Origin: Pseudonocardia sp.
Lineage (GTDB): Bacteria; Actinomycetota; Actinomycetes; Mycobacteriales; Pseudonocardiaceae
Length of the DNA stretch: 42,429 bases
Assembly (NCBI GenBank): GCA_030451825.1
Contig: JAKDNL010000006.1
Span: forward strand, 1-42,429
Direction of reading: 5' to 3'
Under the pieces are notes generated by a model, which was given only the letters and a program-made list of their open reading frames with translations, did no database searches and was not told where the DNA came from. A program made the translations under genes and the position numbers. Positions 1 to 33,635 of the stretch are shown here, one piece after another. Position 1 is the first letter of the stretch, and every line of letters starts with the position of its first letter.

Positions 1-619
1 GGTCGGAGATCTCCGAGGGGTCGTCGTCGGCAGCGAGGCGGACGCGAGCGGTTCCCTCCTCGAGGTTCAGCGTCGTCGTGGCTGGGCCCCCGCTGGTCGC
101 GGACCGGTCGGGCCGGTAGCCCTCGTCCTCGGGGAGGACGAGGTGATGACGCGTCGCGGTGTGGCTCGCCCCGTAGCGTCGCGCGAGCCGTCCGGCCGCC
201 GGATGGCTGCCGTAGGCGACGCCGTGGAGCCGGTGCAGCCCCGTCCCGGCCCACCCTTCCGCACCTGCGGCTTCGATCCCGAGCTCCTCGAGCACGGCGG
301 TCGCGACACCGATCGACCGCCGGCAGGGGTCGACGACGAGCTCCACGACACCGATCCCTGACGCGATGTCGCCGACGGTCAGCGCACCGGCCAGTACGTA
401 GTCGTCGTCGTGGCTGACGCCGTGGCGGTGCAGGCAGGTCTCGATCTCGATCACCCACGTCGGCCCGGACGAGCGGGAGCGCCCCGGCCGCGAGGGCGGC
501 CCGAAGCCCATCTCGGCGTCGAACCGAGCTGCCCTGTCGAGCAGGTCCGTGACGTCGGAGGAGATCGCGCTCACCCAGCGCAGGCGGATCGGTCCGGTCG
601 TCACGGTGGTCGCGGCCAT
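1..619 (-). CDS. GNAT-like acyltransferase family protein, partial (C-terminus beyond the window)
   Basis: This reading frame is missing from the ORF track because it runs off the left edge without a stop. It starts at an ATG that overlaps the TGA of the Rieske gene by one base (TGATG), so the two are probably translationally coupled. About 206 residues are visible. The central part reads GVVELVVDPCRRSIG, then a GWAGTG segment and a HPAAGRLARRYG segment. The first resembles motif A of GNAT acetyltransferases, where the acyl-CoA pyrophosphate binds. The same three blocks occur in order in the protein at 19077-20057, which also follows a Rieske gene, so the two are paralogues. Two-domain GNATs such as mycothiol synthase (MshD) are the nearest family I can suggest. 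The substrate is unknown, and pairing with a Rieske oxygenase is unusual for an acetyltransferase. Confidence 0.72.
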   Translation of the reverse strand, partial: MAATTVTTGPIRLRWVSAISSDVTDLLDRAARFDAEMGFGPPSRPGRSRSSGPTWVIEIETCLHRHGVSHDDDYVLAGALTVGDIASGIGVVELVVDPCRRSIGVATAVLEELGIEAAGAEGWAGTGLHRLHGVAYGSHPAAGRLARRYGASHTATRHHLVLPEDEGYRPDRSATSGGPATTTLNLEEGTARVRLAADDDPSEISD

Positions 620-1803
620 CAGGTGCGGTCGGCCGGGACGTTGCGGACGAGCCGATCGAGCTCGCGACGGAACAGATGGTTGCCGAGCTCGTTGCTGCCG
701 AGCAGCATCGTCCCGGCGTCCTGGCTGCGCATCGCCTCCTGCGATCCCTCCAGGATGGGGAAGTCCTCGTCGTGGATGATCGAGATCATGATCTTCCAGT
801 TCTTCGCCCAGAACCGGTCCCACTCCTCCTGACCGAGCCCGGTGACCTCGGTGGTCGGAGCCATCAGGCGCATCTCCATCACGGAGTTGCCGGGATCGGC
901 GCCGCAGGGCCGGAAGGTGAGCAGCTCGACGTGTGTGGCGTGCTTGAGCAGCATGCTGTTCGGGGCGAGGAAGCAGCTCTCGATGGTGTGGTTCGCGGCG
1001 TCGACGCCGGTGCTGTCCTCGCCGATGAAGCGGTCGATGCTCTTGCGCGCGGCGAGGAACCAGAAGTGGCGCCCGAAGTCCTCGAGCGCCAGCTTGTTGG
1101 TGTGCAGGACCTTCCCGGCGGTGTTCGGGTGGGCGTACTTGACGTGGTAGTTGTCCAGGAAGCCATCCTGCATGATCTTCCAGTTGGTCGGCCGGTCGAA
1201 CGTGTGCGGCGTGACGCTGACCAGGTCCTCGATCCGGTAGCCGGCCAGGATCGCGTCCATCTCGGGCCCGAGCCAGGTCTCGACGTCGATCTCCCGCCGC
1301 GCGTTGTCGATCATCCAGAGGAACCCGTGGCGTTCCTCGACCGGTAGCTCGACCAGGCCGAACTCGGACCGGTCGAAGTCGCCGAAGGTGTCGTCGAGGG
1401 TGACCGTGCGCAGCTCGCCGCTCGGGTCGTAGGACCAGCGGTGGTAGGGGCAGGAGAACAGCCGGCAACGGCCGGACTCCTCCTCGACGAGCTGGGCGCC
1501 GCGGTGCCGGCACGCGTTGACGAACGCCTTCACACCACCGTCGCGCTGGCGGATCACGATCGCGTTGTTGCGGGGGAGTCGCCGGGTGAGGAACTCGTTC
1601 GGTTTCGCGATCTCGGAGCCATGACCGACGATGAACGGCACCTCACCGAACACCCGGTCGCGTTCGAGCGCGGCGAGATCGGGATCGCGGTACTCGACCG
1701 CCTCGGACGGGGCGATCTCGCCGAACTCGTCGGTGGTCCCCTTCTCGACATGGCCGAGCATGGTGCGGAACGCGCGGTCACGCATTCCCTCGTCGAGCGT
1801 CAT
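619..1803 (-). CDS. Rieske non-heme iron oxygenase, alpha subunit (copy 1)
   Basis: 394 residues, a usual length for an aromatic-ring-hydroxylating oxygenase alpha subunit. The Rieske [2Fe-2S] ligands are Cys98 and His100 (CRHRG) with Cys118 and His121 (CPYHRW), a C-x-H-x17-C-x2-H arrangement. The C-terminal catalytic domain carries DNYHVKYAHPNT, which supplies the two iron-binding histidines, and a later acidic segment HDEDFP. Such enzymes use electrons from a reductase to hydroxylate aromatic, alicyclic or steroid substrates with O2. No reductase sits beside it; the one at 16800-17768 could serve it. It lies 31 bases downstream of an acyl-CoA ligase and overlaps the GNAT gene, so the three form an operon. 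It is clearly paralogous to the enzyme at 17881-19080, with long near-identical stretches such as LPVEERHGF. No beta-subunit gene is nearby, so it may be a homo-oligomer. The substrate cannot be told from sequence. Confidence 0.93.
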   Translation of the reverse strand: MTLDEGMRDRAFRTMLGHVEKGTTDEFGEIAPSEAVEYRDPDLAALERDRVFGEVPFIVGHGSEIAKPNEFLTRRLPRNNAIVIRQRDGGVKAFVNACRHRGAQLVEEESGRCRLFSCPYHRWSYDPSGELRTVTLDDTFGDFDRSEFGLVELPVEERHGFLWMIDNARREIDVETWLGPEMDAILAGYRIEDLVSVTPHTFDRPTNWKIMQDGFLDNYHVKYAHPNTAGKVLHTNKLALEDFGRHFWFLAARKSIDRFIGEDSTGVDAANHTIESCFLAPNSMLLKHATHVELLTFRPCGADPGNSVMEMRLMAPTTEVTGLGQEEWDRFWAKNWKIMISIIHDEDFPILEGSQEAMRSQDAGTMLLGSNELGNHLFRRELDRLVRNVPADRT

Positions 1804-5898: not shown

Positions 5899-6045
5899 TC
5901 AGTAGGCGATGAAGAGGATCTCGTCGCGCGAGTACTCGTGGTCGGGGTGGTTCGCGGCCAGGTGCTCCTGCGTCTTGGTGACCAGGTCGTCCTCGTTCTC
6001 GCCGGTGATCTGGACACCGCAGGGGCAGTTCAGGTTGCGCTTCAC
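5899..6045 (-). CDS. DUF1059-family small protein
   Basis: A 48-residue protein that the ORF track shows only as the tail of a longer shadow frame. It starts at a GTG preceded by GGAAGGA, and that GTG overlaps the hydrolase stop (GTGA). The sequence has NCPCGVQITGENEDDLV near the start and a HLAANHPDHE segment, typical of DUF1059 proteins. The two cysteines and several histidines suggest a small metal-binding fold. DUF1059 proteins are widespread in actinomycetes and their function is unknown. Coupling to the hydrolase suggests joint expression. Confidence 0.85.
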   Translation of the reverse strand: MKRNLNCPCGVQITGENEDDLVTKTQEHLAANHPDHEYSRDEILFIAY

Positions 6046-6971
6046 GATGGGTCCTTCCGTCGGTTCGGCCCGGACGGCGTCCCACCCGCCACGTGCCCGA
6101 GGAAGTCGAGCAGGCGGCCGGTGAACACGTCGTTGTCGTCGCCGGCCACCATATGACCGGTCCCGGGTACTTCGGCGTACCAGGCGTCGGGCACCAGGTC
6201 CAGCAGCTCGCGAGCACCGGCCCGGCTGACGACGTCCGACCCGGTCCCGCGGACCAGCATGGTGGGCACGGCCAGATCCGCGGCCGCGGCGCGGGCCCGA
6301 CGGGCGTTCTCGGCCATCGCCGACGGCGCCGTCTGCGGCTCGTCCACCAGCCGCGGGTCCCAGTGCCAGAACCAGCGCCCGGCCCGCCGGCGCAGGTTGC
6401 GCCGCAGCCCGCCGGGATCGCGCGGGCGCGGGCGGTGCGGGTTGTAGGCCGCGACAGCGTCGGCCACCTCGTCGAGCGAGGCGAAACCGTCCCGCCCGGC
6501 CCGCATGAACGAGGTGACGGCCGCGGTTCCCGCCCGTTCCGTGGTCGGTGCGACGTCCACCAGCACCAGGCCGCTGGCGATCTCGGGGTCCTCGGCGAGC
6601 ACCAGAAGCGAGGTCATCCCGCCCAGCGACGCCCCGACCAGGACGGGGGGATCGTCGAGGACGTCGAGGACCGCACGGAGGTCGGCGACCAGCGCGTCCA
6701 GGGAGTAGTCGCCCCGCGGGGACCACTCGCTCTCGCCGTGCCCGCGGGTGTCCGGGCAGAGAACGGTCCAGCCCGCGCCGGCCAGGCGTCGTCCGGTGTG
6801 TCGCCAGGAGTGCCGGGTCTGCCCGCCGCCGTGCAACAGCACCACGGTGCCGGTCGGGTCCTGCCCGGCCGGCTCCCACAGGTCCGCGGCGAGCCGGACC
6901 CCCGACCCGTCGAGTGTGAGTACCCGGTTCCGGGGTTGGTCCCGGACGGCCGGCGCGTCGGGTGCGTTCAT
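6042..6971 (-). CDS. Alpha/beta hydrolase
   Basis: 309 residues from the ATG at 6971, which has GGAGGAA upstream; the longer ORF-track start at 7052 has no such signal. The fold is shown by VVLLHGGGQTRHSW (oxyanion region), the nucleophile elbow GASLGG with its serine, a MLVRGTGSDVV strand before the likely catalytic aspartate, and GTGHMVAGDD with the catalytic histidine. It would hydrolyse an ester, lactone or C-C bond; nothing in the sequence narrows this. It is divergent from the aldehyde dehydrogenase at 7220, and the GACA-N12-TGTC site at 7129-7148 lies between them, so both may respond to one regulator. Confidence 0.9.
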   Translation of the reverse strand: MNAPDAPAVRDQPRNRVLTLDGSGVRLAADLWEPAGQDPTGTVVLLHGGGQTRHSWRHTGRRLAGAGWTVLCPDTRGHGESEWSPRGDYSLDALVADLRAVLDVLDDPPVLVGASLGGMTSLLVLAEDPEIASGLVLVDVAPTTERAGTAAVTSFMRAGRDGFASLDEVADAVAAYNPHRPRPRDPGGLRRNLRRRAGRWFWHWDPRLVDEPQTAPSAMAENARRARAAAADLAVPTMLVRGTGSDVVSRAGARELLDLVPDAWYAEVPGTGHMVAGDDNDVFTGRLLDFLGHVAGGTPSGPNRRKDPS

Positions 6972-7128
6972 GACGTTCCTCCGGATCGGTGACGCTCGTG
7001 ATCGGGCGCCCGGATGGGGAGCCACCGCGCGGATCAACAAACCATATGGCATTAGATTGGCGGCCGGATCAGGCCGGATCAGGTCGGAGCCGGGTCGCGC
7101 GGTGACCAGGTGCCGTATGTAATAGTGA

Positions 7129-9477: not shown

Positions 9478-10659
9478 ATGGCGGGTGCCGCAATCGCCGG
9501 TCTCGGGATGACCGAGATGGGCAAGGTGTACGGCCGCTCGTCGACGTCGCTGGCCGCGGAGGCGGTCCGCTCCGCCGTCACCGACGCCGGGCTCGCGCTC
9601 ACCGACCTGGACGGGTTGCTGGTGAGCGCCGGGATCAAACAGGACGTCGGGATCGGGCTGGCCGCCGTGCTGGGCCTGTCGGACCTGTCCGTGCTGAACC
9701 AGGTCAACGCGTTCGGGGCCACCGCCGGGGTGATGGTGGCGCAGGCCGCGCAGGCCGTCGCGAGCGGCGCGGCCACGACGGTGGCATGCGTGTTCGCCGA
9801 CAGCCCGCTGCGCCCGAAGGAGTCCGCGGGCGCGTCCTACGGGGGCACGGGACGGAGCGGTCCGGGGAGAACCGCACGCGGTCTCGCCGGGTGGTCGCTG
9901 GCGTCCGGGGCGACCAACCCGAACATCCTCTACGCGATGTGCGCCCGGCGGCACATCGAGCGGTACGGGACGACCTCCGAGCAGCTCGGCGAGATCGCCG
10001 TCGCGCAGCGCGCGTGGGCGGCCCACAACCCGCTGGCCCAGATGCGGGAACCGATGACGATCGAGGACCACCGGGCGTCCCGCTGGATCGCCGAACCGCT
10101 GCACCTGCTGGACTGTTGCCTGGTCAGCAACGGTGCGGTGGCCGTGGTGGTCACCTCGGCCGGGCGCGCGGAGGCGCTGGCCCGGCCCGCGGTGCACCTC
10201 TGGGGACATGGGCAGGCGCACGCCCCGCGGCGGATGCAGGCCGGGTCGGACTGGGGACTGGTGACCCCGGCCGCCCGATCCGGCCCGCAGGCGATGCGGA
10301 TGGCCGGGATCGGCGTCGACGACGTCGACGTCGCCGAGATCTACGACTGCTACACCTACACCGTGCTCGTCACGCTGGAGGACTACGGGTTCTGCGGCAA
10401 GGGCGACGGCGGCGCGTTCGTCTCCGACGGGCGGCTGGCCCCAGGCGGCGAGCTCGCCTGCAACACCGGCGGCGGGCAGCTGTCGTCGTACTACATGTGG
10501 GGGTTCACTCCGTTGTCCGAGGCGGTGATCCAGGCCCGCGGGGCGGGCGGCGAGCGGCAGGCTCCGCGCAACGACGTCGTGCTGGTCAGTGGCAACGGCG
10601 GGATCCTCGAGCACCACTCGACGCTCGTGCTGAGCCCGCACGAGAGGGGCGGATCGTGA
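9478..10659 (+). CDS. Thiolase-fold protein of the lipid-transfer/Ltp2 type (copy 1), probable aldolase component
   Basis: 393 residues, beginning at the base after the hydratase stop. The start AGAAIAGLGMTEMGK and the IYDCYTYTVLV segment are typical of SCP2/Ltp-like thiolases. Where ordinary thiolases have the nucleophilic cysteine (VNxxCASG), this protein reads VNAFGATAG, so the cysteine seems replaced by glycine. Near the C-terminus NTGGGQLSSYYMWGF replaces the usual GHP histidine motif and keeps a tyrosine. Steroid-degrading Ltp2 shares these traits and, with a DUF35 partner, performs retro-aldol cleavage of beta-hydroxyacyl-CoA. The adjacent overlapping DUF35 gene supports that reading. 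The substrate is unknown. Confidence 0.85.
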   Translation: MAGAAIAGLGMTEMGKVYGRSSTSLAAEAVRSAVTDAGLALTDLDGLLVSAGIKQDVGIGLAAVLGLSDLSVLNQVNAFGATAGVMVAQAAQAVASGAATTVACVFADSPLRPKESAGASYGGTGRSGPGRTARGLAGWSLASGATNPNILYAMCARRHIERYGTTSEQLGEIAVAQRAWAAHNPLAQMREPMTIEDHRASRWIAEPLHLLDCCLVSNGAVAVVVTSAGRAEALARPAVHLWGHGQAHAPRRMQAGSDWGLVTPAARSGPQAMRMAGIGVDDVDVAEIYDCYTYTVLVTLEDYGFCGKGDGGAFVSDGRLAPGGELACNTGGGQLSSYYMWGFTPLSEAVIQARGAGGERQAPRNDVVLVSGNGGILEHHSTLVLSPHERGGS

Positions 10660-11105
10660 GCGGCTTCCCGACGGTCGAACGGAACGGGGAGAGTGTGGCC
10701 TTCTTCGACGCCGCCGCCCGGGGGGAACTGCTGATGCAGCGCGGGCCCTCCGGCGCCGTGCTGCCCCCGGAGGCGAGGACCGATCCGGAGACCGGCTCCG
10801 CGGACCTCGAACCGGTCGTGGTCTCCGGGCGGGGGCACCTGGTCACCTGGTCCGTGGTGCACCGGGCGCCGGTGCCGGCGCTCGCGGACGCGGTGCCCTA
10901 CGTCAGCGCCGTCGTCGAGCTCGCGGAGGGACCGTGGCTGATCGTCCGGTTGCTCGGCGATCCGGCGTCGTTGCACGCGGGTGATCCGGTTCGGGTCCGC
11001 TTCGAGACCTCCGGTGGGTCCGGGGACGGTGGCGAGACACTCCCGGTGTTCGAACCGGTGGCCCCAGGTCGAGGCGGTAGCATCGCCGCACAACGTGAGG
11101 AGTGA
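10656..11105 (+). CDS. DUF35/OB-fold protein lacking the zinc-ribbon cysteines
   Basis: 149 residues from a GTG overlapping the thiolase-fold stop (GTGA). The N-terminal FFDAAARGELLMQR and the C-terminal OB-fold part (VTWSVVHRAPVPAL, then VPYVSAVVELAEGPWLIVRL) are typical of DUF35 partners of Ltp-type thiolases. Normally a four-cysteine rubredoxin-like ribbon follows the LLVQR segment. Here that stretch reads RGPSGAVLPPEARTDPET, with no cysteine at any of the four positions; the paralogue at 20077 keeps all four. The protein probably serves as a structural or acyl-CoA-binding partner of the thiolase-fold protein. Confidence 0.82.
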   Translation: MSGFPTVERNGESVAFFDAAARGELLMQRGPSGAVLPPEARTDPETGSADLEPVVVSGRGHLVTWSVVHRAPVPALADAVPYVSAVVELAEGPWLIVRLLGDPASLHAGDPVRVRFETSGGSGDGGETLPVFEPVAPGRGGSIAAQREE

Positions 11106-12395: not shown

Positions 12396-12737
12396 GACGT
12401 CCTTTCCACCGTGTACTACCCCGAACCTACCCCGGGAAGGCGCCCGGACGTTCGGTCCTGCTCCGTCGACCACCCCTGGCGAACGGGCGTCCGAGCAGGC
12501 GTCCTCTGACAGAACAACAGAAGCAGTTACTTGTACCACCGTTCGTCCTCGGCGTGTCACGGCGCTCCGAGGGAAGGTGGGTGGCCGCCGTCTCACTGAG
12601 GGCCCGGGCCAGTGCGGACCGCGGATTCGGGAGAGGTCGATCGGACAGCGTGGGTGGCCGGCTGCCGTAATCTAGATACATTAGCTATGATTTGTATCAG
12701 TCGCGGTGTTGCGGCATCGACCGAAGGGACGTACTGC
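12396..12737. promoter_or_regulatory. Divergent regulatory gap between TetR3 and the CoA-transferase
   Basis: This 342-base stretch has no convincing gene; the ORF-track frames here are short and overlap in several frames. On the TetR3 side there is an AT-richer segment around 12508-12536 containing GTTACTTGTACC, a possible promoter or operator for TetR3. On the other side is the palindrome at 12675-12698. The middle part (about 12540-12660) is GC-rich with no repeat that I can see. Confidence 0.5.
12675..12698. promoter_or_regulatory. Candidate operator GATACA-N12-TGTATC upstream of the CoA-transferase
   Basis: A 24-bp element with perfect 6-bp inverted arms GATACA and TGTATC separated by 12 AT-rich bases. 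It ends 39 bases before the GTG start of the CoA-transferase and so could overlap the core promoter. The arm spacing equals that of the GACA-N12-TGTC sites but the arms differ, so a related regulator such as TetR3 may bind here. Confidence 0.55.
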
Positions 12738-15143
12738 GTGGGCGAGACGAGCATCGGGCACGACGTCCTCCCGCTGGCGGGGCTACGGGTGATCGACCTG
12801 GCGGAGGGCCCGGCCGAGAGCTGTGGCCGCTACCTGGCCGACCTGGGCGCCGATGTCGTCCGGGTGGAGCCCCCGGGTGGCTCGACCGGCCGGGCGGACG
12901 CGATCGGCTTCGCCCTGCGCAATGTGAACAAGCGGGGCCTGGTCCTCGATCCCGACTCCGCGGCCGGAGCCGGGGACCTCCTCCGGCTGGCCGGCGAGGC
13001 GGACGTCCTGATCGAGTCGTTCACCCACGGCTCCGCCGCCGAGCGGGGGGCAACCCCGGAACGGTTGCATGCCGCCAACCCGGCCCTGGTCGTCGTGTCG
13101 ATCACCGACTTCGGGCGCACCGGTCCGTATCGGGATCGGGTGGCCGGCGAGGACGTGCTCGCGGCGGCCGGTGGAGTGCTGTGCCGCTCCGGGCCGCCGG
13201 GCGGGACACCGCTGCTGCCGCCCGCCGGCGTCGTGACGCAGGTAGTCGGGGTGCACGCCGCGTGGGCGGCGCTGGTCGCCTACGTCAAGCGACTGCGCAC
13301 CGGCGTGGGCGAGCACGTCGACGTGTCCGCGCTGGAGGCGGTCGTGCACGGCGTCGACCCCGCGTTCGGGGCGCAGGGAACCGCCGCCGCCGGCCGGGCC
13401 GAGTCCTTCCCGCGGAACCGCCCGGACGGGGCGAACTTCTACCCGGTGTTCCGCTGCGCGGACGGGCACGTCCGGATCTGCCTGCTGGCCCGCCGGCAGT
13501 GGCGCGCGATGTTCGCCTGGCTCGGTGAGCCCGCCGAGTTCGCCGATCCGCGGTTCGACGCGATCCCGGCCCGGTCCGCGGCCGCCGACCGGTTGCACCC
13601 GTTGATCTCGGAGCTGTTCGCCGGGGCGACGTGCGACGAGCTGATCGCCGAGGGGACCACCCGGGGGGTCCCGATCGCCGGGATGCTGACCCTCGACGAC
13701 GTGCTCGACGTCGACCACTTCCGCACGACCGGCTCGCTGGTCGACGTCGAGATCGCACGCGACCTGTGGGCGCGTGTGCCGTCCGGCTACGTGACCGTCG
13801 ACGGTCACCGGGCCGGGGTGCGTACCCGGGCGCCCGAGCTCGGTGAGCACCGTCCCGGATTCGGTGCCGCCCCCGCACGGGACCTGGGACTACCGGGCCT
13901 GTCGAACGGAGCCGGCCCGCTGTCCGGGCTGCGCGTGCTGGACCTCGGGGTGATCGTGTTCGGCGCCGAGCTCGGCCGGCTGTTCGCCGACCAGGGCGCC
14001 GATGTGATCAAGGTCGAGAACAGCGCGTTCCCGGACGGCCTGCGCCAGACCCGTACGGGCGGCGGGATGAACCCCTCGTTCGCCTGGGGACACCGCAACA
14101 AGCGTGGCCTGGGCCTGGACCTGCGCAGCGCCGAGGGTGCCCGGCTGTTCCGCGACCTGGTCCTCGACGCCGACGTCGTGCTCGCCAACTTCAAGCCCGG
14201 AACCCTGGAGTCGCTCGGCTTCTCGTTCGACGAGCTCGCCGCGATCAACCCCCGGATCGTCGTCTCGGACAGCAGCGCCTTCGGCACACGCGGGCCGTGG
14301 CGCCGGCGGATGGGGTACGGGCCGCTGGTGCGGGCGTCCTGCGGGCTGTCCGCCCTGTGGCGGGACCCGGACACCGACGCCTCCGACCCGGCCGCCTTCA
14401 GCGACGGATCGACCGTCTACCCCGACCATGTGGCGGGGCACGCGGCCGCCGTCGCGGTGCTCTCCGCCGTGATCGGGCGGGCCCGGACCGGGCGGGGCAG
14501 TGCCGTCGACACGGCCCAGGCCGACACCGCGCTGGTCGCACTCGGACCAGCGCTGGCCCGTGCCTCGCTGCGGCCGGGTACGGAGCCGGTGGAGGTCGAT
14601 GCCCGCGGCGACGCGGTCCCGGCGGGCGTCTTCCCGTGTGCCGGTGATGACGAGTGGTGTGTCATCACCGTCCGTGACGACGTCGAGTGGGAACGCCTGG
14701 TGGCGGCCACCGGTCTGGCCGACGATCCCGGTCTGCGGTCGATCGGTGGCAGGCTGACCCGGCGGGCGGAGGTCGAGAAGTCGCTCGCGGCCTGGACCGC
14801 CGTCCGCGCTCCGGACGAGGTCACCGCGGTCCTGCAGGAGGTGGCCGTCCCCGCCTCCGGGATGACCCGGCTACCGGAGCTCCTGGCGGATCCGCAGCTC
14901 GTGGCCCGCGACGCGTTCCACACCCTGGAGCACGAGCAGCTCTCGGTGCCGGTGCCCACCGGGGCCCGCATCGCGCGCTTCTCCACGATCCTCGACGCGG
15001 GTCTCCGGCCGGCGCCGATGCCCGGTCAGCACACCCGGGAGATCGGTACGTCCCTGCTCGGCCTGAAGGACACCGAGGTCGACGACCTGCTCACGGCCGG
15101 GGTCCTGCAGGCCGCCGACGAACCACCGGCCGGGTCCGGCTGA
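12738..15143 (+). CDS. Tandem double-domain CaiB/BaiF (class III) CoA-transferase
   Basis: 801 residues from the GTG at 12738, which follows GAAGGGA; the track start at 12612 would include the operator. Two complete class III CoA-transferase units lie in tandem, about residues 10-400 and 410-800. The first opens with LAGLRVIDLAEGPAESCGRY and the second with GLRVLDLGVIVFGAELGRLF, and each has its own NKRGL segment. Members move CoA between carboxylic acids or racemise 2-methylacyl-CoA. In the first unit the catalytic aspartate position (GYD in most members) reads GED and may be functional. In the second unit it reads GYGPLVRASCG, so the aspartate appears to be glycine. One competent site plus one structural or altered site is therefore likely. 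It is monocistronic, with a hairpin after the stop. Confidence 0.9.
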   Translation: MGETSIGHDVLPLAGLRVIDLAEGPAESCGRYLADLGADVVRVEPPGGSTGRADAIGFALRNVNKRGLVLDPDSAAGAGDLLRLAGEADVLIESFTHGSAAERGATPERLHAANPALVVVSITDFGRTGPYRDRVAGEDVLAAAGGVLCRSGPPGGTPLLPPAGVVTQVVGVHAAWAALVAYVKRLRTGVGEHVDVSALEAVVHGVDPAFGAQGTAAAGRAESFPRNRPDGANFYPVFRCADGHVRICLLARRQWRAMFAWLGEPAEFADPRFDAIPARSAAADRLHPLISELFAGATCDELIAEGTTRGVPIAGMLTLDDVLDVDHFRTTGSLVDVEIARDLWARVPSGYVTVDGHRAGVRTRAPELGEHRPGFGAAPARDLGLPGLSNGAGPLSGLRVLDLGVIVFGAELGRLFADQGADVIKVENSAFPDGLRQTRTGGGMNPSFAWGHRNKRGLGLDLRSAEGARLFRDLVLDADVVLANFKPGTLESLGFSFDELAAINPRIVVSDSSAFGTRGPWRRRMGYGPLVRASCGLSALWRDPDTDASDPAAFSDGSTVYPDHVAGHAAAVAVLSAVIGRARTGRGSAVDTAQADTALVALGPALARASLRPGTEPVEVDARGDAVPAGVFPCAGDDEWCVITVRDDVEWERLVAATGLADDPGLRSIGGRLTRRAEVEKSLAAWTAVRAPDEVTAVLQEVAVPASGMTRLPELLADPQLVARDAFHTLEHEQLSVPVPTGARIARFSTILDAGLRPAPMPGQHTREIGTSLLGLKDTEVDDLLTAGVLQAADEPPAGSG

Positions 15144-16799: not shown

Positions 16800-17768
16800 G
16801 TGGGCACGTCCGAGTCCGGATCCGTGCAGGACATCGAGATGCAGGTCGTCGAGCGGGAGGCGCTCACGGACGACGTCGTCCGGCTCACGCTCCGGGTCGC
16901 CGGCACCGGGTCACTACCGGAGTGGGAGCCGGGCGCGCACCTCGATCTGCACCTCGACGCCGACCTGGTGCGTCAGTACTCCCTCTGCGGCGATCCGGCG
17001 GACCGCGAGGCCTACCAGGTCGCGGTGCTGCGGGAGCCGTCCGGACGTGGCGGCTCCGCGCACGTGCACGACGTCCTGGAGGTCGGCTCCGCGATACGCG
17101 TGCGCGGGCCGCGGAACAACTTCGACCTCCTCGGCGCCCAGCGCTACCTGTTCCTCGCCGGCGGGATCGGCATCACTCCCGTCCTCCCGATGGTCGCCGC
17201 GGCGGAGAAGGCCGGTGCGGACTGGCGCCTGGTGTACGGCGGACGGTCACGGGCGTCGATGGCCTTCGTCGACGAGCTGGTCGAGCGGTACGGCGATCGG
17301 GTCACGGCCGTCCCGCAGGACGAGGACGGCCTGCTGGACCTGGACGCCCTGCTGAGCGAACCGCAGGACGACGTGCTGGTCTACTGCTGCGGGCCGGAAC
17401 CGCTGCTCGCGGCCGTGGAACAGCGATGTGCCGGGTGGCCGAAGGGCGCGCTGCACCTTGAGCGGTTCGCACCGAAGGAGCTCGCCGAGCCGGCTGCGGG
17501 CGGCTCGTTCGAGGTCGAGTTCGCGCGCTCGGGTGTCACGGTCACGGTTCCGGCCGGCGTCAGCATCGTGGACGCGGCGGCGGAGGCGGGCGTCGACATC
17601 GAGACGTCCTGCCGTGAGGGCACCTGCGGCACCTGCGAGTCGGAGGTGCGCGCAGGCGTCCCGGAGCACCGGGACTCGCTGCTGACCCCCGACGAGCAGG
17701 AGGCGAACGACGTGATGTTCCCGTGCGTCTCGCGCGCGCTGTCGGAGAAGCTCGTCATCGAACGCTGA
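16800..17768 (+). CDS. Phthalate-dioxygenase-reductase-type oxidoreductase (flavin, NAD, 2Fe-2S)
   Basis: 322 residues from a GTG with GGGAGGGGGA upstream. Domain order is flavin-binding (RQYSLCGDPADREAY and LREPSGRGGSAHVHD), NAD-binding (LFLAGGIGITPVLPMVA and VYCCGPEPLL) and a C-terminal plant-type [2Fe-2S] domain (CREGTCGTC, then MFPCVSRA). The GPRNNF segment and RxYS motif are typical of the PDR/VanB family, which uses FMN. It passes electrons from NADH to an oxygenase. It lies between the P450-ferredoxin pair and the Rieske oxygenase at 17881, so it could serve the Rieske enzyme (the usual PDR role), the ferredoxin, or both. It is the only such reductase in the window, although there are two Rieske genes. 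Confidence 0.93.
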   Translation: MGTSESGSVQDIEMQVVEREALTDDVVRLTLRVAGTGSLPEWEPGAHLDLHLDADLVRQYSLCGDPADREAYQVAVLREPSGRGGSAHVHDVLEVGSAIRVRGPRNNFDLLGAQRYLFLAGGIGITPVLPMVAAAEKAGADWRLVYGGRSRASMAFVDELVERYGDRVTAVPQDEDGLLDLDALLSEPQDDVLVYCCGPEPLLAAVEQRCAGWPKGALHLERFAPKELAEPAAGGSFEVEFARSGVTVTVPAGVSIVDAAAEAGVDIETSCREGTCGTCESEVRAGVPEHRDSLLTPDEQEANDVMFPCVSRALSEKLVIER

Positions 17769-17880: not shown

Positions 17881-19080
17881 ATGTCGATCGACGAGAATGC
17901 GGCGAGCGCCCGGCAGACGGACGTTCTCGCCCCCCGTAACGACCGGATCCGGCGAGCCCTCGACCACATCCGCAACGACAGCACCGACGAGTTCGACGGC
18001 ATCGCCTCGTTCACCGCCGACGAGTTCATCGACCCGGAGATCGCCCGGCGGGAGCGCGACGCGGTGTTCGGCCGGGTCCCCTCGATCGTCTGCCACGGCA
18101 GCGAGCTACCCGAACCGAACGACTTCATCACGCTGCAGATGCCGCGCAACAAGGTGATCATCGTGCGGCAGAAGGACCGCTCGGTGAAGGCGTTCGTGAA
18201 CCTGTGCCGGCACCGCGGCGCGCTGCTGGAGGAGCAGGACAAGGGCCGGTGCCGGCTGTTCTCGTGTGGCTACCACCGGTGGTCCTACGACACCAACGGC
18301 GAGCTGCGCGCGATCACCCGGGACAACACGTTCGGCGAGATCGACCGTTCGCGGTACGGCCTGATCGAGCTGCCCGTCGAGGAGCGGCACGGGTTCGTGT
18401 GGATGATCGACGAGGCGGACGCCGAGATCGACGTCGCGGCCTGGCTCGGCCCCGACATGGACGGCATCCTCGCCGGCTACGAGATGGACAAGCTGGTGTC
18501 GGCCCAGGCCGAGGGCTTCGACGAGCCGGTCAACTGGAAGATCATGCAGGACGCGTTCCTGGACGGCTACCACATCCAGTACGCGCACCCGAACACCGCG
18601 GCCAAGCACATCCACACCAACGTGATGGCGGTCGAGGACTTCGGCCGGCACGCCCGGTTCATCGCGCCGCGCAAGACGATCGACAAGTACCTGGAGGAGC
18701 CGCCCGCTCCCGAGGACGACCTGTCGCCCTACGTCACCGAGACGCACTTCCTGCTGCCCAACAGCACGCTGCTGCGGCAACCGGACCACTTCGAGCTGCT
18801 CACCTTCCGGCCGCACCCGACCGACCCGGCCCGCTGCCGGATGGAGATGCGCCTGGTGGCCCCGCGGGTCGAGGACTCGGGGATGGACGAGGAGCGTTGG
18901 ACCCGGCTCTGGGAGAAGAACTGGACGATCCTCCTCGCGGTGCTGCACCAGGAGGACTTCCCGCTGCTGCGCAGCTCGCAGACCGGGATGGCCAGCGCGA
19001 ACGCCGGCGGGATGCTTCTGGGCCGCAACGAAGTGATCAACCAGATCTTCCACCGCGAGCTCCGGAAGCTGGTCTCGTGA
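17881..19080 (+). CDS. Rieske non-heme iron oxygenase, alpha subunit (copy 2)
   Basis: 399 residues with a perfect AGGAGG ribosome binding site. Rieske ligands are Cys109 and His111 (CRHRG) with Cys129 and His132 (CGYHRW). The catalytic iron site is DGYHIQYAHPNT with a later HQEDFP segment. Alignment by eye with copy 1 shows long shared blocks (KAFVN-CRHRGA-L, GRCRLFSC-YHRWSYD, IELPVEERHGF, NWKIMQD-FLD-YH). They are paralogues that probably act on related substrates. The gene is followed, with a GTGA overlap, by a GNAT-like gene, exactly as copy 1 is. The reductase at 16800 is its likely electron donor. Confidence 0.95.
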   Translation: MSIDENAASARQTDVLAPRNDRIRRALDHIRNDSTDEFDGIASFTADEFIDPEIARRERDAVFGRVPSIVCHGSELPEPNDFITLQMPRNKVIIVRQKDRSVKAFVNLCRHRGALLEEQDKGRCRLFSCGYHRWSYDTNGELRAITRDNTFGEIDRSRYGLIELPVEERHGFVWMIDEADAEIDVAAWLGPDMDGILAGYEMDKLVSAQAEGFDEPVNWKIMQDAFLDGYHIQYAHPNTAAKHIHTNVMAVEDFGRHARFIAPRKTIDKYLEEPPAPEDDLSPYVTETHFLLPNSTLLRQPDHFELLTFRPHPTDPARCRMEMRLVAPRVEDSGMDEERWTRLWEKNWTILLAVLHQEDFPLLRSSQTGMASANAGGMLLGRNEVINQIFHRELRKLVS

Positions 19081-20057
19081 TCGATTTCGACTGGTACCGG
19101 CCGGACGGCCCCGGGTTCGCCCCCGACGTCGAGACGGAGCTGCGGGAGATGCTCGCCGAGGCGTCGGAGGCCGACGTCGAGGCGGGCTTCCCCCGGCTCT
19201 CGCTCGACGACCCCACCGAGCCGGGGACCTCGCAGCTGCTCCTCTGGCTGCTGCCGGACGACCGCTCCGGCCGCAACGTGCCGCTCGTGCCGAGCCTGGC
19301 CGGCTACCTGCGGGTGGAACCGCTCCGCGGTGTGGATGCCGGTACCGGCGAGGTGTCCTACGTGGTGCGGCCCGTGTACCGGTCGCGGGGCATCACCACG
19401 CTGCTGCTCGAGAAGATCGGGCTGGAGCTGGGTACCGACGACGGCTGGCAGGGGACCGGGGTGTCCGGGCTGCGGGTCTGGGCCCGTGCCAACCACCCGG
19501 CGGCGCTCCGCATGTCCCTGCGGTTCCGCCGGTACGGGATCCGGACGGCCCTGCGGCAATGGCAGATGCTCGCGCCGGTGCGTCCGGACCGCGAGATCGA
19601 CCCGGGCGCGGAGCCCGGTGGTCCGGAGATCCACCCGGCCGTCACCGCCGAACGGTCTGCGGCCGCCGAGCTGTGGGCCGCGAGCGGGCGGCGGCACCAC
19701 CCGCCGGAGCAGTCGTCGGTGCTGCTCGCCGGCCCTGCCGGCGCGCCGGAGGGTGCGGTGTGGATCGATCCGGAATCCGGAGAGCCCACCGAGTACGGCA
19801 CGGCCGGGCGGATCCTGGCGGTCGCGACGCGGGAGTCGCGCGCGGCCCGAGAGTCCGACCCGCTGGTGCGGGCCCTTCTGGCGGCGGGGCTGGAGCAGCT
19901 GCGGGACGCGGGGCTGCGGGTCGGTGCGATCACCATCGACTCGGAGCGCCGGTCGCTGGTGCACGAGGCGCGCACGCTGGGCTTCATCCACGACCAGACC
20001 GACGTGCAGTACACGGTGCACAACCGGACCACCGAGCCGTTGCCGGCGATCCGATGA
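19077..20057 (+). CDS. GNAT-like acyltransferase family protein, partner of Rieske oxygenase 2
   Basis: 326 residues from a GTG that overlaps the Rieske stop (GTGA); the track lists it only inside a longer shadow frame. An N-terminal acidic region precedes a motif-A-like segment VVRPVYRSRGITTLLLEKIG, then GWQGTGVSGLRVWARANHPA and LRFRRYGI, the classic late GNAT strand-helix pattern. A second, weaker repeat in the C-terminal half (RAARESDPLVRALLAAGLEQ and LVHEARTLGFIHDQ) suggests two GNAT domains, as in mycothiol synthase. The acyl acceptor is unknown. Strict pairing with Rieske genes in two places suggests it acts on the oxygenase product or modifies the oxygenase. Confidence 0.82.
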   Translation: MIDFDWYRPDGPGFAPDVETELREMLAEASEADVEAGFPRLSLDDPTEPGTSQLLLWLLPDDRSGRNVPLVPSLAGYLRVEPLRGVDAGTGEVSYVVRPVYRSRGITTLLLEKIGLELGTDDGWQGTGVSGLRVWARANHPAALRMSLRFRRYGIRTALRQWQMLAPVRPDREIDPGAEPGGPEIHPAVTAERSAAAELWAASGRRHHPPEQSSVLLAGPAGAPEGAVWIDPESGEPTEYGTAGRILAVATRESRAARESDPLVRALLAAGLEQLRDAGLRVGAITIDSERRSLVHEARTLGFIHDQTDVQYTVHNRTTEPLPAIR

Positions 20058-20076: not shown

Positions 20077-20820
20077 ATGACGCAGGCGCGGTTCCCGGGG
20101 GTACCGGCGGAACTGGTCGATGTGGTGGAGCGGCACGGGCAGGCGGTCGCCGCCGGGGACACCCGGATGGTGCTGGCAGACTTCCGCCCGGACCGGGTCG
20201 GCCAGCTGGCCGCCTCGGCGCGGCCGCCGGACCGGATGGACGCGGCCGAGCTGCTGTCCCTGGACCCCGGCCCGGGGGACCGCCACACCGCGCACATCCG
20301 GTACCGCGGTGCGGGCGGCGACGAGGCGGTCTTTCGGTCACGATGGATCGAGATCGACGGCACCTGGCACGTCACCGAGGTCCGCAACGTGCCGGACACC
20401 CCGCCCCGCACGCCGTTCGAGCACCCCAGCGACGACGGGTCGGACGCGCCGCACTGGGAGGGCCTGGCCCGGCGGGAGCTGCGGATCCAGCACTGCCCCC
20501 GGTGCGACATGTGGATCTGGTCGCCCCGGCCGATCTGCCCGTCGTGCCACCACGACCAGCTGGAGTGGCCGGTCATCGACCCGGTGGGCACGGTGTACTC
20601 CTGGACCCGTACCTGGCAGCCGTTCCACCCCTCGACGGCCGGGCACCTGCCCTACGTCGTGGTGACCGTGGAGCTGCCGGCCGCGGGCAACCGCCGCGTG
20701 CTGGGCGTGCTGTGCGACGGCGACGGCGCGGACGTGCGGATCGGGATGCCGGTGAAGGCGGAGTTCGACGACCCGGACGACCCGGCGGGATACCCACTGC
20801 TGCGCTGGCGTCTGTCGTGA
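20077..20820 (+). CDS. NTF2-like/DUF35 fusion protein with intact zinc ribbon
   Basis: 247 residues from an ATG with AGGAG upstream, shortly after the GNAT stop. The first 110 residues or so (LVDVVERHGQAVAAGDTRMV, later FRSRWIEIDGTWHVTEVRNV) look like a SnoaL/NTF2-like cone domain. The rest is a DUF35 module: the zinc ribbon HCPRCDMWIWSPRPICPSC, with all four cysteines, followed by the OB-fold part ending LLRWRLS. DUF35 proteins pair with thiolase-fold partners, and in steroid degraders a hotdog hydratase is often fused or associated. Here the extra domain is NTF2-like instead. The next gene encodes the partner thiolase-fold protein. Confidence 0.85.
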   Translation: MTQARFPGVPAELVDVVERHGQAVAAGDTRMVLADFRPDRVGQLAASARPPDRMDAAELLSLDPGPGDRHTAHIRYRGAGGDEAVFRSRWIEIDGTWHVTEVRNVPDTPPRTPFEHPSDDGSDAPHWEGLARRELRIQHCPRCDMWIWSPRPICPSCHHDQLEWPVIDPVGTVYSWTRTWQPFHPSTAGHLPYVVVTVELPAAGNRRVLGVLCDGDGADVRIGMPVKAEFDDPDDPAGYPLLRWRLS

Positions 20821-20845: not shown

Positions 20846-22024
20846 ATGAGCACACCCGACCGGTCCTTCCGGGGCGCGACCGCCGTCGTCGGGGCGGCGA
20901 ACACCCCGTTCCTGAAGCGGGGGACAGCGACATCGACGTCGCTGGAACTGACCCTGCGTGCGATCCTGGACGCGGCGGCCGACGCGGGGATCGACGCCCA
21001 CGACATCGACGGCTTCGTCTCCTACGCGAACGACGACAACGAGGGCCTCGCCGTCGGCGCGGCGCTCGGCGTGAAGGAGATCCGCTGGTCCAGCATGGTC
21101 TGGGGTGGCGGTGGCGGCGGCGTCGCGGCGGCCGTGAACGCGGCGGCGGCCGCGGTGGCATCCGGCCAGGCGGAGACGGTCTGCGTCTACCGCGGTATCT
21201 CCGAGGCCGATTCCGGCCGGCAGAGCTACATCAGGGGCCACATCGGTCCGCTCTACTCCGCGCACGGGATGTTCGCGCCGGCGCAGGTCTGTGCGCTGCG
21301 CACCCAGCGGATGATCGAGGTGGACGGCGTGCCCCGCGAGGCGCTCTCCGCGCTCGTCGCCGCGGTGTATCACCACGCGCAGAACAACCCCGATGCCGTC
21401 GCGTACGGCCGGCCGCTGGACCCCGCCGTGTACGAGGACTCCCGGATCATCTCCGAGCCGCTGCGGCTCTACGACTGCTCCCGGGAGAACGACGCCGCGG
21501 GAGCGGTCATCGTCACCAGCGCGGCGAGGGCGCGGGACCTGCGCCAGAAGCCGGCCTACGTCCTCTCCGGGGTGCAGGGCTCGGGTCCCGGCTGGACCGA
21601 GTCGGCGGAGAACGAGATCCCGTACTCGAGCGCGGGCTTCCACCCGGCTCTGGTCGCCCGCCTGTGGGAGGGCGCCGGCCTCGAGCCCGGTGAGGTGGAC
21701 GTGGTGCAGGTCTACGAGAACTTCTCCGGCCCCGCCGTGGCGTCGCTGATCGACGTCGGTCTGGTGCCGCAGGGTCCGGACGCCGGCCGCGTGATGCGGT
21801 TCGAGAACCTGGTGGCACCGGACGGCCGGCTGCCGCTCAACACCGCGGGCGGAAACATCGCCGAGGGTTTCGTGCACGGCTTCGGGCTGATCGTCGAGGC
21901 CGTCCGGCAGATCCGCGGGACCTCGCCGAACCCGGTTCCCGGGGCTGCGGTCTCGCTGCTGCTCGGCGGGCCGATGGCGCCGCTGGTCAGCGCGACCGTG
22001 TTCGGCTCGGACGCCGTGCTCTGA
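20846..22024 (+). CDS. Thiolase-fold protein of the lipid-transfer/Ltp type (copy 2)
   Basis: 392 residues with a GGAACGGAGCGAG leader. It begins GATAVVGAANTPF and carries the family segment VVQVYENFSGPAVASL. The usual nucleophilic-cysteine region reads SMVWGGGGGGVAAAV, a glycine run with no cysteine. Near the C-terminus NTAGGNIAEGFVHGFG has phenylalanine where copy 1 has tyrosine. It is therefore not a standard thiolase; an aldolase-type or structural role with the preceding DUF35 protein is likely. It is the last gene of the plus-strand block and converges on TetR4 with a 21-base gap. Confidence 0.85.
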   Translation: MSTPDRSFRGATAVVGAANTPFLKRGTATSTSLELTLRAILDAAADAGIDAHDIDGFVSYANDDNEGLAVGAALGVKEIRWSSMVWGGGGGGVAAAVNAAAAAVASGQAETVCVYRGISEADSGRQSYIRGHIGPLYSAHGMFAPAQVCALRTQRMIEVDGVPREALSALVAAVYHHAQNNPDAVAYGRPLDPAVYEDSRIISEPLRLYDCSRENDAAGAVIVTSAARARDLRQKPAYVLSGVQGSGPGWTESAENEIPYSSAGFHPALVARLWEGAGLEPGEVDVVQVYENFSGPAVASLIDVGLVPQGPDAGRVMRFENLVAPDGRLPLNTAGGNIAEGFVHGFGLIVEAVRQIRGTSPNPVPGAAVSLLLGGPMAPLVSATVFGSDAVL

Positions 22025-25614: not shown

Positions 25615-25634
25615 GACGACAGACGAAACTTGTC
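25615..25634. promoter_or_regulatory. Candidate operator (site E) on the yrbE side of the divergent promoter
   Basis: Sequence GACGACAGACGAAACTTGTC, one mismatch (GACG for GACA) from the shared GACA-N5-CG-N5-TGTC pattern, preceded by ATGA. It lies 143 bases before the yrbE-A start, just after an AT-richer stretch (GGGTTAACAATGAG) that may hold the promoter. Confidence 0.52.
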
Positions 25635-25776
25635 AAAGCGTTGCTCGTTCAGTCTCACGAGCCGGAACGCACGCTCCCCGTGGCGATCCGACGTGAACCC
25701 GTCGTCTCAGAGCAGAGGCCCCGATGCAGCCCGACGTTGTGACCTGCGCCGACGCCGCCCCGGTAGGGGTGGCCTG

Positions 25777-26547
25777 ATGGCAACCCCACCGTTGGTGGCC
25801 CGGACAGTGAAGCCGCTCGGCACGTTCTTCGCCTTCACCGCGGACACCTTCGTCGCGATGTTCAAGCGACCGTTCCAGTGGCGCGAGTTCGTCCAGCAGA
25901 CCTGGTTCGTCGCCAGCGTCTCGCTCGGCCCGGCGATCCTGCTCGGGATCCCGTTCGTCGCGCTGGTGACCTTCCAGTTCAACCTGATCCTGGTCGAGAT
26001 CGGCGCGATCGACCTGAGCGGCTCCGGTTCGGCGTTCGCCACCGTGACCCAGATCGGGCCGGTCGCGACGACCTTCATCATCGCCGGCGCGAGCTCGACC
26101 GCGGTCTGCGCGGACATCGGTGCGCGCCGGATCCGCGAGGAGCTCGACGCCATGGAGGTCCTCGGGATCGACGTCGTGCACCGGCTCGTGGTTCCCCGGG
26201 TGCTGGCGACGGCGGTGAACGCGTTCCTGCTCAACGGGGTCATGATCTTCATCGGGCTGGCGGGCGGCTACTTCTTCGCGGTCTACCTGCAGGACGCCAG
26301 CCCGGGTCAGTACATCGACTCGCTCACCCTGCTCGTCGGCTTCGGCGACCTGGTGCACGGCGAACTCCGCGCGGTCGTGTTCGGCGTGGTCGGTGCGCTC
26401 ATCGGCTGCTACCGGGGCATGACCTGCAAGGCGGGCCCCCGGGGCGTCGGGAACGCGGTCAACGAGACCGTCGTCTACACGTTCCTCGCGCTGTTCCCGA
26501 TCAACATCCTGCTGACGCAGATCCCCTACTCGCTCGGACTCGTGTGA
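25777..26547 (+). CDS. YrbE-type Mce permease subunit A (MlaE family)
   Basis: 256 residues from the ATG at 25777, after AGGGGTGG; the track start at 25630 overlaps nothing coding-like. It is a hydrophobic MlaE/YrbE permease with several membrane segments (TFIIAGASSTAVCADIGARR, FLLNGVMIFIGLAGGYFFAV) and the family loop IREELDAMEVLGID. With YrbE-B it forms the membrane channel of the Mce lipid importer, driven by the Mkl ATPase. It is the first gene of an operon of eight tightly spaced genes. Confidence 0.95.
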   Translation: MATPPLVARTVKPLGTFFAFTADTFVAMFKRPFQWREFVQQTWFVASVSLGPAILLGIPFVALVTFQFNLILVEIGAIDLSGSGSAFATVTQIGPVATTFIIAGASSTAVCADIGARRIREELDAMEVLGIDVVHRLVVPRVLATAVNAFLLNGVMIFIGLAGGYFFAVYLQDASPGQYIDSLTLLVGFGDLVHGELRAVVFGVVGALIGCYRGMTCKAGPRGVGNAVNETVVYTFLALFPINILLTQIPYSLGLV

Positions 26548-26557
26548 GGACGTGCCC

Positions 26558-27388
26558 ATGCTCTCCACCGTTCGCAAGGCCCTGGGCGCCCCGTTGCGTC
26601 TGCTCGACGACCTCGGCAAGCAGGCCGAGTTCTACGGCAAGGGCGTCGTCTGGATCCCCAAGGCCGTCACGAGCTACAAGACCGAACAGGTCCGGCTGAT
26701 CGCCGAGGTCGGTATGAGCACCGGGGCACTCGCCGTCATCGGTGGCTCATCGGTGATCACCTTCTTCATCACCCTGTTCGCCGGCGTGACCGGTGGTCTG
26801 CAGAGCTACGACGCGCTGGCCAACCTCCAGCTCGAGGCACTCGGCGGCTTCGCCTCGGCGATCATCAACCCGCGGCTGCTGGTGCCGATCATCGGGGGCG
26901 CCGCCCTCGCGGCCACGGTCGGCAGCGGGTTCACCGCCCAACTGGGCGCGATGCGGGTCTCCGAGGAGATCGACGCGCTCGAGGTGATGGGCGTCCGCTC
27001 CCTGCCCTACCTCGTCACCACGCGTCTGGTCGCCGGGATGATCACGATCATCCCGATCTTCGCGATGTCGATGGTCGGTGCCTGGGCCGGCTGGAAGGTC
27101 ACCCAGGTGGGCTTCTTCGGGCTCTCCGAGGGGACCTTCGACCACTACATGCAGACGTTCATGCAGTGGCAGGACGTTCTCTACTCGTTCGTCCAGGCGA
27201 TCGGGATCGCGGTCATCGTGATCTCCATCCACACCTACTACGGCTACACGGCCAGCGGCGGCCCGGCCGGGGTCGGGAAGGCGGTCGGGCAGGCTGTCCG
27301 CACGTCGCTGGTCGCGGTGCTGACCGCGGAACTCGCCATCTCGATGGCGCTCTACGCCGACTCCGACGCCTTCCGCATCACGGGATGA
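26558..27388 (+). CDS. YrbE-type Mce permease subunit B (MlaE family)
   Basis: 276 residues. I choose the ATG at 26558, seven bases after GAGGA, over the GTG at 26552, which is too close to it. Family features are a long N-terminal amphipathic part, the loop SEEIDALEVMGVRSLPYLVT and membrane segments such as GMITIIPIFAMSMVGAWAG. It pairs with YrbE-A. It is followed four bases later by mceA. Confidence 0.95.
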   Translation: MLSTVRKALGAPLRLLDDLGKQAEFYGKGVVWIPKAVTSYKTEQVRLIAEVGMSTGALAVIGGSSVITFFITLFAGVTGGLQSYDALANLQLEALGGFASAIINPRLLVPIIGGAALAATVGSGFTAQLGAMRVSEEIDALEVMGVRSLPYLVTTRLVAGMITIIPIFAMSMVGAWAGWKVTQVGFFGLSEGTFDHYMQTFMQWQDVLYSFVQAIGIAVIVISIHTYYGYTASGGPAGVGKAVGQAVRTSLVAVLTAELAISMALYADSDAFRITG

Positions 27389-27392
27389 CGAG

Positions 27393-28820: not shown

Positions 28821-29986
28821 GCGTCTCGAAGGCACAGCACATCACCGGGCCGTTGATCAAGACCTTGGTCTTCGTCGTCGCGACCATGCTGGTGCTCACC
28901 GTGGTGAGCATCGAGATGGGCGCCGGTTCCGGATTCGGGGACAGGCGTCGCTACTCGGGGGTCTTCACCAACACCTCCGGCCTGGTCGCCGGGGACTCCG
29001 TGCGGGTCGCGGGCGTCGAGGTGGGTTCGGTCGAGGACGTCGGGGTCGTGAACAACACCCAGGGCATCGTGACGTTCACGGTCGACTCGACCCGTGATCT
29101 GCCGGGCGACACCCGGCTGGCCGTCCGATACCTCAACATCACCGGGGATCGCTACCTCGAGGTCGCACGCGGGCCGGGCTCCGAGCCGCCGCTCCGCGAG
29201 GACGCGGTGATCCCGGTGAGCCAGACCAAGCCCGCACTGGACCTCGACGTGCTGCTGGCCGGCTTCTCTCCGCTGTTCGAGGGCCTAGCCCCGGACCAGA
29301 TCAACCAGATGAGCTCCGACCTCATCTCGGTGTTCCAGGGGCAGGGCGGCACCATCGAGTCGCTGCTCTCCCGGATCGGCTCGCTGACCAACACTCTCGC
29401 GGACCGGGACGCCGTCATCGGCTCGGTCGTCGACAACCTGAACACCGTCCTCGGCACCCTGGACCGGCGGGCGCCCGAGCTCGAGTCCACGATCGGTGAG
29501 CTCCAGCAGCTCACCACCGGCCTGGCGAACGACCGGGAGCGCATCGGGAACTCGCTCGAGGGCGCCAACCGGCTCACGACGAGCGTGGACGAGCTGCTCG
29601 GCAAGGTCCGGGGCCCGCTCAAGGGGACGGTCGACCAGCTCGGCCGGGTCGCGCGGCAGGCCAAGGCCGGCGAGGCGGCCATCGACGAGAACCTCGCGTT
29701 GCTGCCCGGCGCGTACCTGCGGGTCAGCCGGCTGGGTTCCCGGGGTGCTACCTACAACCTGTTCATCTGCTCGCTGCGGGTGAAGACCACCGGGCCGACC
29801 GGTGACCCGGTCTACTCGCCGTGGCTGGGCCCGGCCGACAACGTCGACCGCTGCAAGTTCGGCAACGCCCCGCTGGAGACGCCCGAGCAGCGGGAGGCCA
29901 ACCCCATCCCGCAGGAGGACGCCGCCGACCAGGGGCAGGTCCCGAACGAGCTCCTCCGCACCGACGGCACGGAGGGTCCACGATGA
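28817..29986 (+). CDS. MceB-type protein
   Basis: 389 residues; its ATG overlaps the mceA stop. The N-terminal anchor (LVFVVATMLVLTVVSI) precedes the MCE domain (YSGVFTNTSGLVAGDSVRVA, GVEVGSVEDVGV). A long helical region with repeated heptad-like segments follows (LNTVLGTLDRRAPELESTIG). The C-terminal FICSLRVK segment and cysteine are common in MceB. It is one of six tunnel-forming subunits. Its stop overlaps mceC by four bases. Confidence 0.94.
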   Translation: MSVSKAQHITGPLIKTLVFVVATMLVLTVVSIEMGAGSGFGDRRRYSGVFTNTSGLVAGDSVRVAGVEVGSVEDVGVVNNTQGIVTFTVDSTRDLPGDTRLAVRYLNITGDRYLEVARGPGSEPPLREDAVIPVSQTKPALDLDVLLAGFSPLFEGLAPDQINQMSSDLISVFQGQGGTIESLLSRIGSLTNTLADRDAVIGSVVDNLNTVLGTLDRRAPELESTIGELQQLTTGLANDRERIGNSLEGANRLTTSVDELLGKVRGPLKGTVDQLGRVARQAKAGEAAIDENLALLPGAYLRVSRLGSRGATYNLFICSLRVKTTGPTGDPVYSPWLGPADNVDRCKFGNAPLETPEQREANPIPQEDAADQGQVPNELLRTDGTEGPR

Positions 29987-33634: not shown

Positions 33635-33635
33635 C

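Follow-up and report, generated by a model that had tools for sequence, protein, structure and literature searches.

Rieske oxygenases are usually viewed as an oxygenase served by its electron donors. In the stretch of DNA analysed here (the window: the whole contig C467, 42429 bases), two Rieske oxygenase genes each overlap a gene for a GNAT protein, which raises the question whether the GNAT belongs to the oxygenase system and what it might do there. No description of a Rieske-GNAT pairing was found in the literature searched in full text, in line with the initial annotation, which did not know it as a described system; this absence is no proof of novelty. The features on which the argument draws are:

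2-619, minus strand: GNAT1, tandem-GNAT protein of MshD-like type, comprising the N-terminal domain and a linker; the 3' end is missing at the contig edge
619-1803, minus strand: Rieske1, alpha-only Rieske oxygenase, 394 aa; PF00355, PF00848
15214-16512, plus strand: cytochrome P450, with relatives among CYP101, P450cin and CYP125 structures
16800-17768, plus strand: probable reductase supplying electrons to the Rieske enzyme, GbcB/PaaE/BenC-like, with a plant-type [2Fe-2S] domain at the C-terminus by eye
17881-19080, plus strand: Rieske2, alpha-only Rieske oxygenase, 399 aa; PF00355, PF00848; belongs to the 76-locus actinobacterial clade described below
19077-20057, plus strand: GNAT2, full-length MshD-like tandem GNAT, 326 aa, GTG start
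20077-20820, plus strand: OB-fold/Zn-ribbon protein, DUF35-like by eye from its sequence, Ltp partner; directly downstream of GNAT2
20846-22024, plus strand: Ltp/SCP2-thiolase-fold protein; closest solved structure 6ok1 'Lipid-transfer protein' (E=1.4e-48)
40717-42231, plus strand: acyl-CoA ligase; 67 of 76 loci (best 80 matches) have a homologue in the vicinity of the Rieske gene

The two gene pairs of the window

Rieske1 and Rieske2 are 57% identical, match PF00848 and PF00355 with E-values down to 1e-24, and both have an intact C-x-H-x17-C-x2-H cluster motif and D-x2-H-x4-H iron motif. Among the Rieske proteins that are members of a pair, the cluster motif is present in 73 of 74 and the iron motif in all 74. 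The additional Rieske paralogs found at these loci (33-44% identical) have no GNAT partner.

The initial annotation had the GNAT1 frame overlapping the Rieske1 stop by one base, and indeed its ATG at position 619 lies in a TGATG. The frame comprises 206 codons and runs off the contig, since the window ends there. That it seemed absent from the list of open reading frames is a matter of start choice; it is not listed from this ATG, but sits inside a longer listed frame with a GTG start. In the second pair, the GTG start of GNAT2 at 19077 overlaps the Rieske2 stop (19078-19080) by 4 bp, in a GTGA.

GNAT1 and GNAT2 had been called diverged homologues by eye. This was borne out by the A2 profile, built without GNAT1, which finds GNAT1 at 3.5e-20 and also a full-length GNAT1 ortholog in the congener G051 at 6.3e-21. 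The latter is a protein of 292 aa (L031:1438-2316), and G051 carries both Rieske-GNAT pairs, approximately 24 kb apart. Single-sequence matches are weak, for GNAT1 (PF13508, E=0.035; TIGR03448, E=2.5e-4) as well as for GNAT2 (TIGR03448, E=1.4e-9). The assignment as GNATs is therefore based on these matches together with an AlphaFold2 model of GNAT2 (mean pLDDT 90, pTM 0.85), which has two GNAT domains in one chain and in Foldseek matches tandem GNATs over both domains, among which MshD 1ozp (E=5.6e-14), 7q3a and 6wqb. The GNAT fold is thus predicted for the second protein, while the truncated GNAT1 yielded a model (pLDDT 70) without a significant match, most of its weak best matches being GNATs. 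GNAT1 nevertheless keeps the residues invariant in the family, numbered in this protein D34, P98, R101, G104, T107, E111, H139, P140, A141, R144 and R148. A comparison of genomes G000 and G051 gave dN/dS values of 0.58 for GNAT1, 0.21 for GNAT2, 0.16 for Rieske1 and 0.17 for Rieske2; GNAT1 is under weak constraint, and GNAT2 and both Rieske genes are under coding constraint. The first copy, in which GNAT1 is truncated and evolves fast, is the weaker example of the pair.

A different arrangement occurs in Rhodococcus zopfii (L102:18676-21155), where a homologue of Rieske1 (74% identical) is followed by a thiolase-like gene, not a GNAT gene, and adjoins a Rieske2-GNAT pair; this too makes the first copy the weaker example. 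The cluster of G051 contains a 756-residue frame (L008:5622-7892) whose start looks molybdopterin oxidoreductase-like by eye; no counterpart was found among the frames of the window. An origin of the genes from a plasmid was considered and rejected, as GNAT2 and Rieske2 had no match in 72,556 plasmids.

Linkage of Rieske and GNAT genes in Actinobacteria

Eight Rieske proteins of the clade were made into a profile, with which 85,462 species, each represented by one genome, were scanned. Its best 80 matches correspond to 76 loci, and all of these are in Actinobacteria. A GNAT profile detected a partner within 10 kb of the Rieske gene in 66 of these 76 loci and within 250 bp in 61 (best 80 matches). 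The geometry of the 66 linked pairs varies: 41 have the GNAT gene downstream and co-oriented (40 of them at -4 to +69 bp), 22 are divergent (20 at 74-193 bp) and 3 have it upstream. As the pair is kept in several gene orders, the linkage has outlived several rearrangements. Ten loci (L042, L043, L044, L050, L051, L055, L059, L068, L082 and L101) lack a linked GNAT gene. Nine of these genomes were searched, leaving out L044, a near-copy of L043, and eight harbour a strong unlinked GNAT copy (E<=1.8e-84); Frankia AgB1.9 is the sole one of the nine without a GNAT.

The same association appears in an order-level sample of 399 genomes. Seven of them contain the Rieske clade (each at E<=1e-218), and these seven are also the only ones with GNATs above the MshD background (best E<=1.3e-57). 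These genomes span six genera and four families, and in one of them (G470) the Rieske and GNAT genes are approximately 26 kb apart. The probability of such a seven-of-seven match is 3e-15 if the genomes are treated as independent draws, which they are not fully. Some of these genomes had contributed sequences to the profiles; the scan giving 76 loci did not have the GNAT in its query and is hence the cleaner test. Rieske and GNAT distances are furthermore correlated over 70 pairs (Mantel r=0.79, the best of 2000 permutations reaching 0.14), at a mean identity of 36% for the GNAT versus 72% for the Rieske protein.

Chance adjacency is ruled out by the linkage among the best 80 matches, the multiple gene orders and the co-occurrence in the 399 genomes. 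The conserved partnership argued for in the initial annotation from two gene pairs was upheld by these searches, and we regard it as almost certain that the Rieske-GNAT pair is a functional unit. Many soil actinobacteria carry this Rieske clade and the GNAT, nearly always together, and this near-constant co-occurrence suggests that the oxygenase has a helper or second enzyme not yet described. Three loci, from an Actinomadura and two Amycolatopsis genomes (L063, L067 and L082), have two clade Rieske genes and one GNAT gene or none in the stretch that was fetched; at such loci one GNAT may serve two oxygenases.

Relation of the GNAT to mycothiol synthase MshD

MshD is the top curated sequence match of the Rieske-linked GNATs and is among their top fold matches. 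The MshD model TIGR03448 is matched by 29 of 30 family members (best 2.9e-24). The scores of the window proteins, 37.7 bits for GNAT2 and 20.5 bits for GNAT1, are below the curated cut-off of 163 bits. In the tree, four MshD and 33 Rieske-linked proteins stand on opposite sides of a branch with an SH-aLRT of 100. A distinct mshD-like gene is located on contig C534 of the genome, with the kind of neighbourhood seen for mshD of relatives (a lipoprotein gene, pstS-like by eye), so that the Rieske-linked GNATs are additional copies. The C-terminal Glu and Tyr, which we take to be the catalytic residues Glu234 (numbering of Rv0819) and Tyr294, the Glu position agreeing with chain numbering, are in the alignment each conserved in 24 of 24 MshD proteins and in 0 of 70 Rieske-linked proteins. 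On these four grounds an identity with MshD was rejected. The GNAT is related to MshD, probably by descent, and is not MshD.

Shared with MshD (TIGR03448; 1OZP, 2C27) are the tandem GNAT architecture, the N-terminal CoA loop, the HPA motif and the positions of D33, R145 and R149. Eleven residues are invariant in all 70 members, namely D33, P99, R102, G105, T108, E112, H140, P141, A142, R145 and R149, of which P99, R102, G105 and T108 make up the N-terminal CoA loop; E35 (67 of 70), W6, W124 and W135 hardly vary. Unlike MshD, the Rieske-linked proteins lack the C-terminal catalytic Glu and Tyr, have E35 and W124 as extra conserved residues, and have a Rieske oxygenase as genomic partner. By pattern, the C-terminal CoA loop has been retained almost exclusively in the Nocardia/Rhodococcus branch, being present in 21 of 22 divergent-type proteins, which form this branch, and in 3 of the 48 others. 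The third position of the N-terminal loop also differs, being Gly in 24 of 24 MshD proteins and Ala, Thr, Met, Val or Ser in nearly all Rieske-linked ones, a change that could weaken CoA binding.

Catalysis in the tandem GNATs characterised to date resides in the C-terminal domain; acetyl-CoA bound at the N-terminal site of MshD is not positioned for the reaction, and what such domains do is an open question (PMC10936415). In the Rieske-linked GNATs it is this usually silent N-terminal domain that is conserved, which makes these proteins a direct test case for its role. The lost residues argue against transfer of the MshD type. With the C-terminal CoA loop mostly lost as well, a non-catalytic or differently acting CoA-binding partner is at least as likely as the roles suggested in the initial annotation, acylation of the hydroxylated product or modification of the oxygenase.

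Possible roles of the GNAT in the pathway

The gene content near the Rieske gene was counted in the 76 loci from the best 80 matches of the Rieske profile. Acyl-CoA ligase is present in 67, SDR in 55, a TetR regulator in 55, P450 in 50, aldehyde dehydrogenase in 47, the Ltp thiolase-fold protein in 46, DUF35 in 41, the reductase (within 10 kb) in 37 and a double CoA-transferase in 34. The GNAT (66 of 76) is as constant as the ligase, yet lies much nearer the Rieske gene. The structure nearest to the Ltp protein of the window, 6ok1, is presumably the Ltp2 aldolase; the product of 20077-20820 matched no model in an NCBIfam search. The window contains two pairs of the Ltp/DUF35 type, 20077-20820 with 20846-22024 and 9478-10659 with 10656-11105, which suggests two retro-aldol side-chain cleavage steps. 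An 843-residue protein (12612-15143) combines two CoA-transferase family III domains in a single chain, with orthologs of similar length in several other clusters. A YrbE/Mce lipid-import operon (25630-34976) adjoins the catabolic cluster, and Mce or YrbE genes also lie near many Rieske-GNAT loci. The P450 and Mce genes nearby hint at a substrate that is hydrophobic and perhaps terpenoid-like.

Breakdown of ibuprofen by the ipf pathway starts with its linkage to CoA, after which a dioxygenase acts on it and a retro-aldolase splits it (PMC9195938). The set of ligase, Rieske oxygenase and Ltp/DUF35 pair recalls this pathway, from which we infer that the Rieske enzyme may act on a CoA thioester. 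The genes of the pair co-occur and co-locate across Actinobacteria, often translationally coupled, and the GNAT is an MshD-type tandem protein in which the catalytic residues of MshD are gone and the conserved part is the N-terminal CoA-binding domain. We tentatively propose that it is a dedicated CoA-binding partner of this one two-component Rieske clade, with a mechanism of handling CoA thioesters. The neighbouring ligase would form the CoA thioester that is the Rieske substrate, and hydroxylation would be followed by retro-aldol cleavage of the side chain by the neighbouring Ltp/DUF35 pair, after the logic of ipf. The N-terminal GNAT domain would hold the CoA end of the substrate or product at the Rieske enzyme, presenting it or handing it on, and the GNAT itself would not be a classical acetyltransferase. 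A stronger form, in which a retired acetyltransferase now serves the oxygenase as an obligate, CoA-thioester-binding subunit, an accessory of a kind not described before, is possible though doubtful. If the proposal is correct, a third protein with a CoA-holding fold, found in about a dozen actinobacterial families, explains how these Rieske enzymes handle bulky CoA-linked substrates, and the GNAT is needed to reconstitute such catabolic enzymes outside their hosts.

The main rival of the CoA-binding partner is a working acyltransferase with its active site in the N-terminal domain, which would acylate the substrate or product of the Rieske enzyme at a hydroxyl or amine, to protect or trap it or to set up the next step; we judge this conceivable but rather unlikely. 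GNATs in conserved operons are usually enzymes. The invariant residues exceed the CoA loop, and D33, E112, H140, R145 and R149 look like an active site; these five are largely present in the N-terminal domain of MshD itself. Both observations count against a CoA-binding partner, as do the retention of the C-terminal CoA loop in the Nocardia/Rhodococcus branch and the changed third position of the N-terminal loop. The conserved CoA-loop residues, the nearly invariant E35, the full GNAT fold predicted for GNAT2 and the tightest pairing being with the Rieske gene, which fits the very next reaction, are also in agreement with an acyltransferase. However, it is the C-terminal domain that is active in characterised tandem GNATs (PMC10936415), and its Glu and Tyr are lost here. 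An acetylated intermediate would moreover have to be deacetylated, and no deacetylase is shared by all the loci; an alpha/beta hydrolase like that at 6042-7052 occurs in 17 of the 76 loci (best 80 matches). GNATs normally acetylate amines, and the cluster gives no pointer to an amine.

Three further explanations are less likely than either of these. The GNAT might be a protein acetyltransferase or a maturation or regulation factor acting on the Rieske protein or the reductase, in keeping with an adjacency and co-occurrence that track the Rieske gene and not any one pathway gene, and with the correlated divergence of the two proteins. This is improbable, as the other Rieske paralogs at the same loci do without such a partner, several loci have two clade Rieske genes and at most one GNAT nearby, and the MshD-type catalytic residues are absent. 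A passenger, adjacent through shared inheritance of the catabolic cluster without a functional link to the Rieske step, would account for the far lower conservation of the GNAT and the weak constraint on GNAT1. The perfect co-occurrence in the 399 genomes, the pair kept through several changes of gene order, the eleven invariant residues and the dN/dS of GNAT2 make this very improbable. The matches of 29 of 30 members to TIGR03448 would fit a second mycothiol synthase, or a maker of a mycothiol-like thiol cofactor for the pathway; this explanation is already largely refuted by the scores far under the cut-off, the separate mshD-like gene, the separate branch and the loss of Glu and Tyr in 70 of 70 proteins, and hardly deserves credence.

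Among known tandem GNATs, VipF, CBG/2WPX, GlmA and MAB_4324 have two GNAT domains and an overall fold like the GNAT2 model, at 11-18% identity, and those described are catalytic via the C-terminal domain (PMC10936415). The two-component alpha-only Rieske oxygenases GbcA, carnitine monooxygenase CntA and VanA likewise combine a Rieske and a mononuclear iron domain with a reductase nearby, and, as in this type, no beta subunit was seen for the Rieske enzymes of the window; the similarity of the latter in profile matches is confined to the N-terminal half. We know of no GNAT partner in the GbcA, CntA or VanA systems, nor, to our knowledge, does the ipf pathway include a GNAT. The ipf retro-aldolase is presumably of the same Ltp/SCP2-thiolase-fold plus DUF35 kind. 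The likeness to ipf is one of gene content only: the window and many of the loci combine a CoA ligase, a Rieske-type oxygenase and an Ltp/SCP2-thiolase-fold protein with DUF35. Unlike ipf, the cluster of the window adds a P450, aldehyde dehydrogenases, the double CoA-transferase, Mce import and the GNAT.
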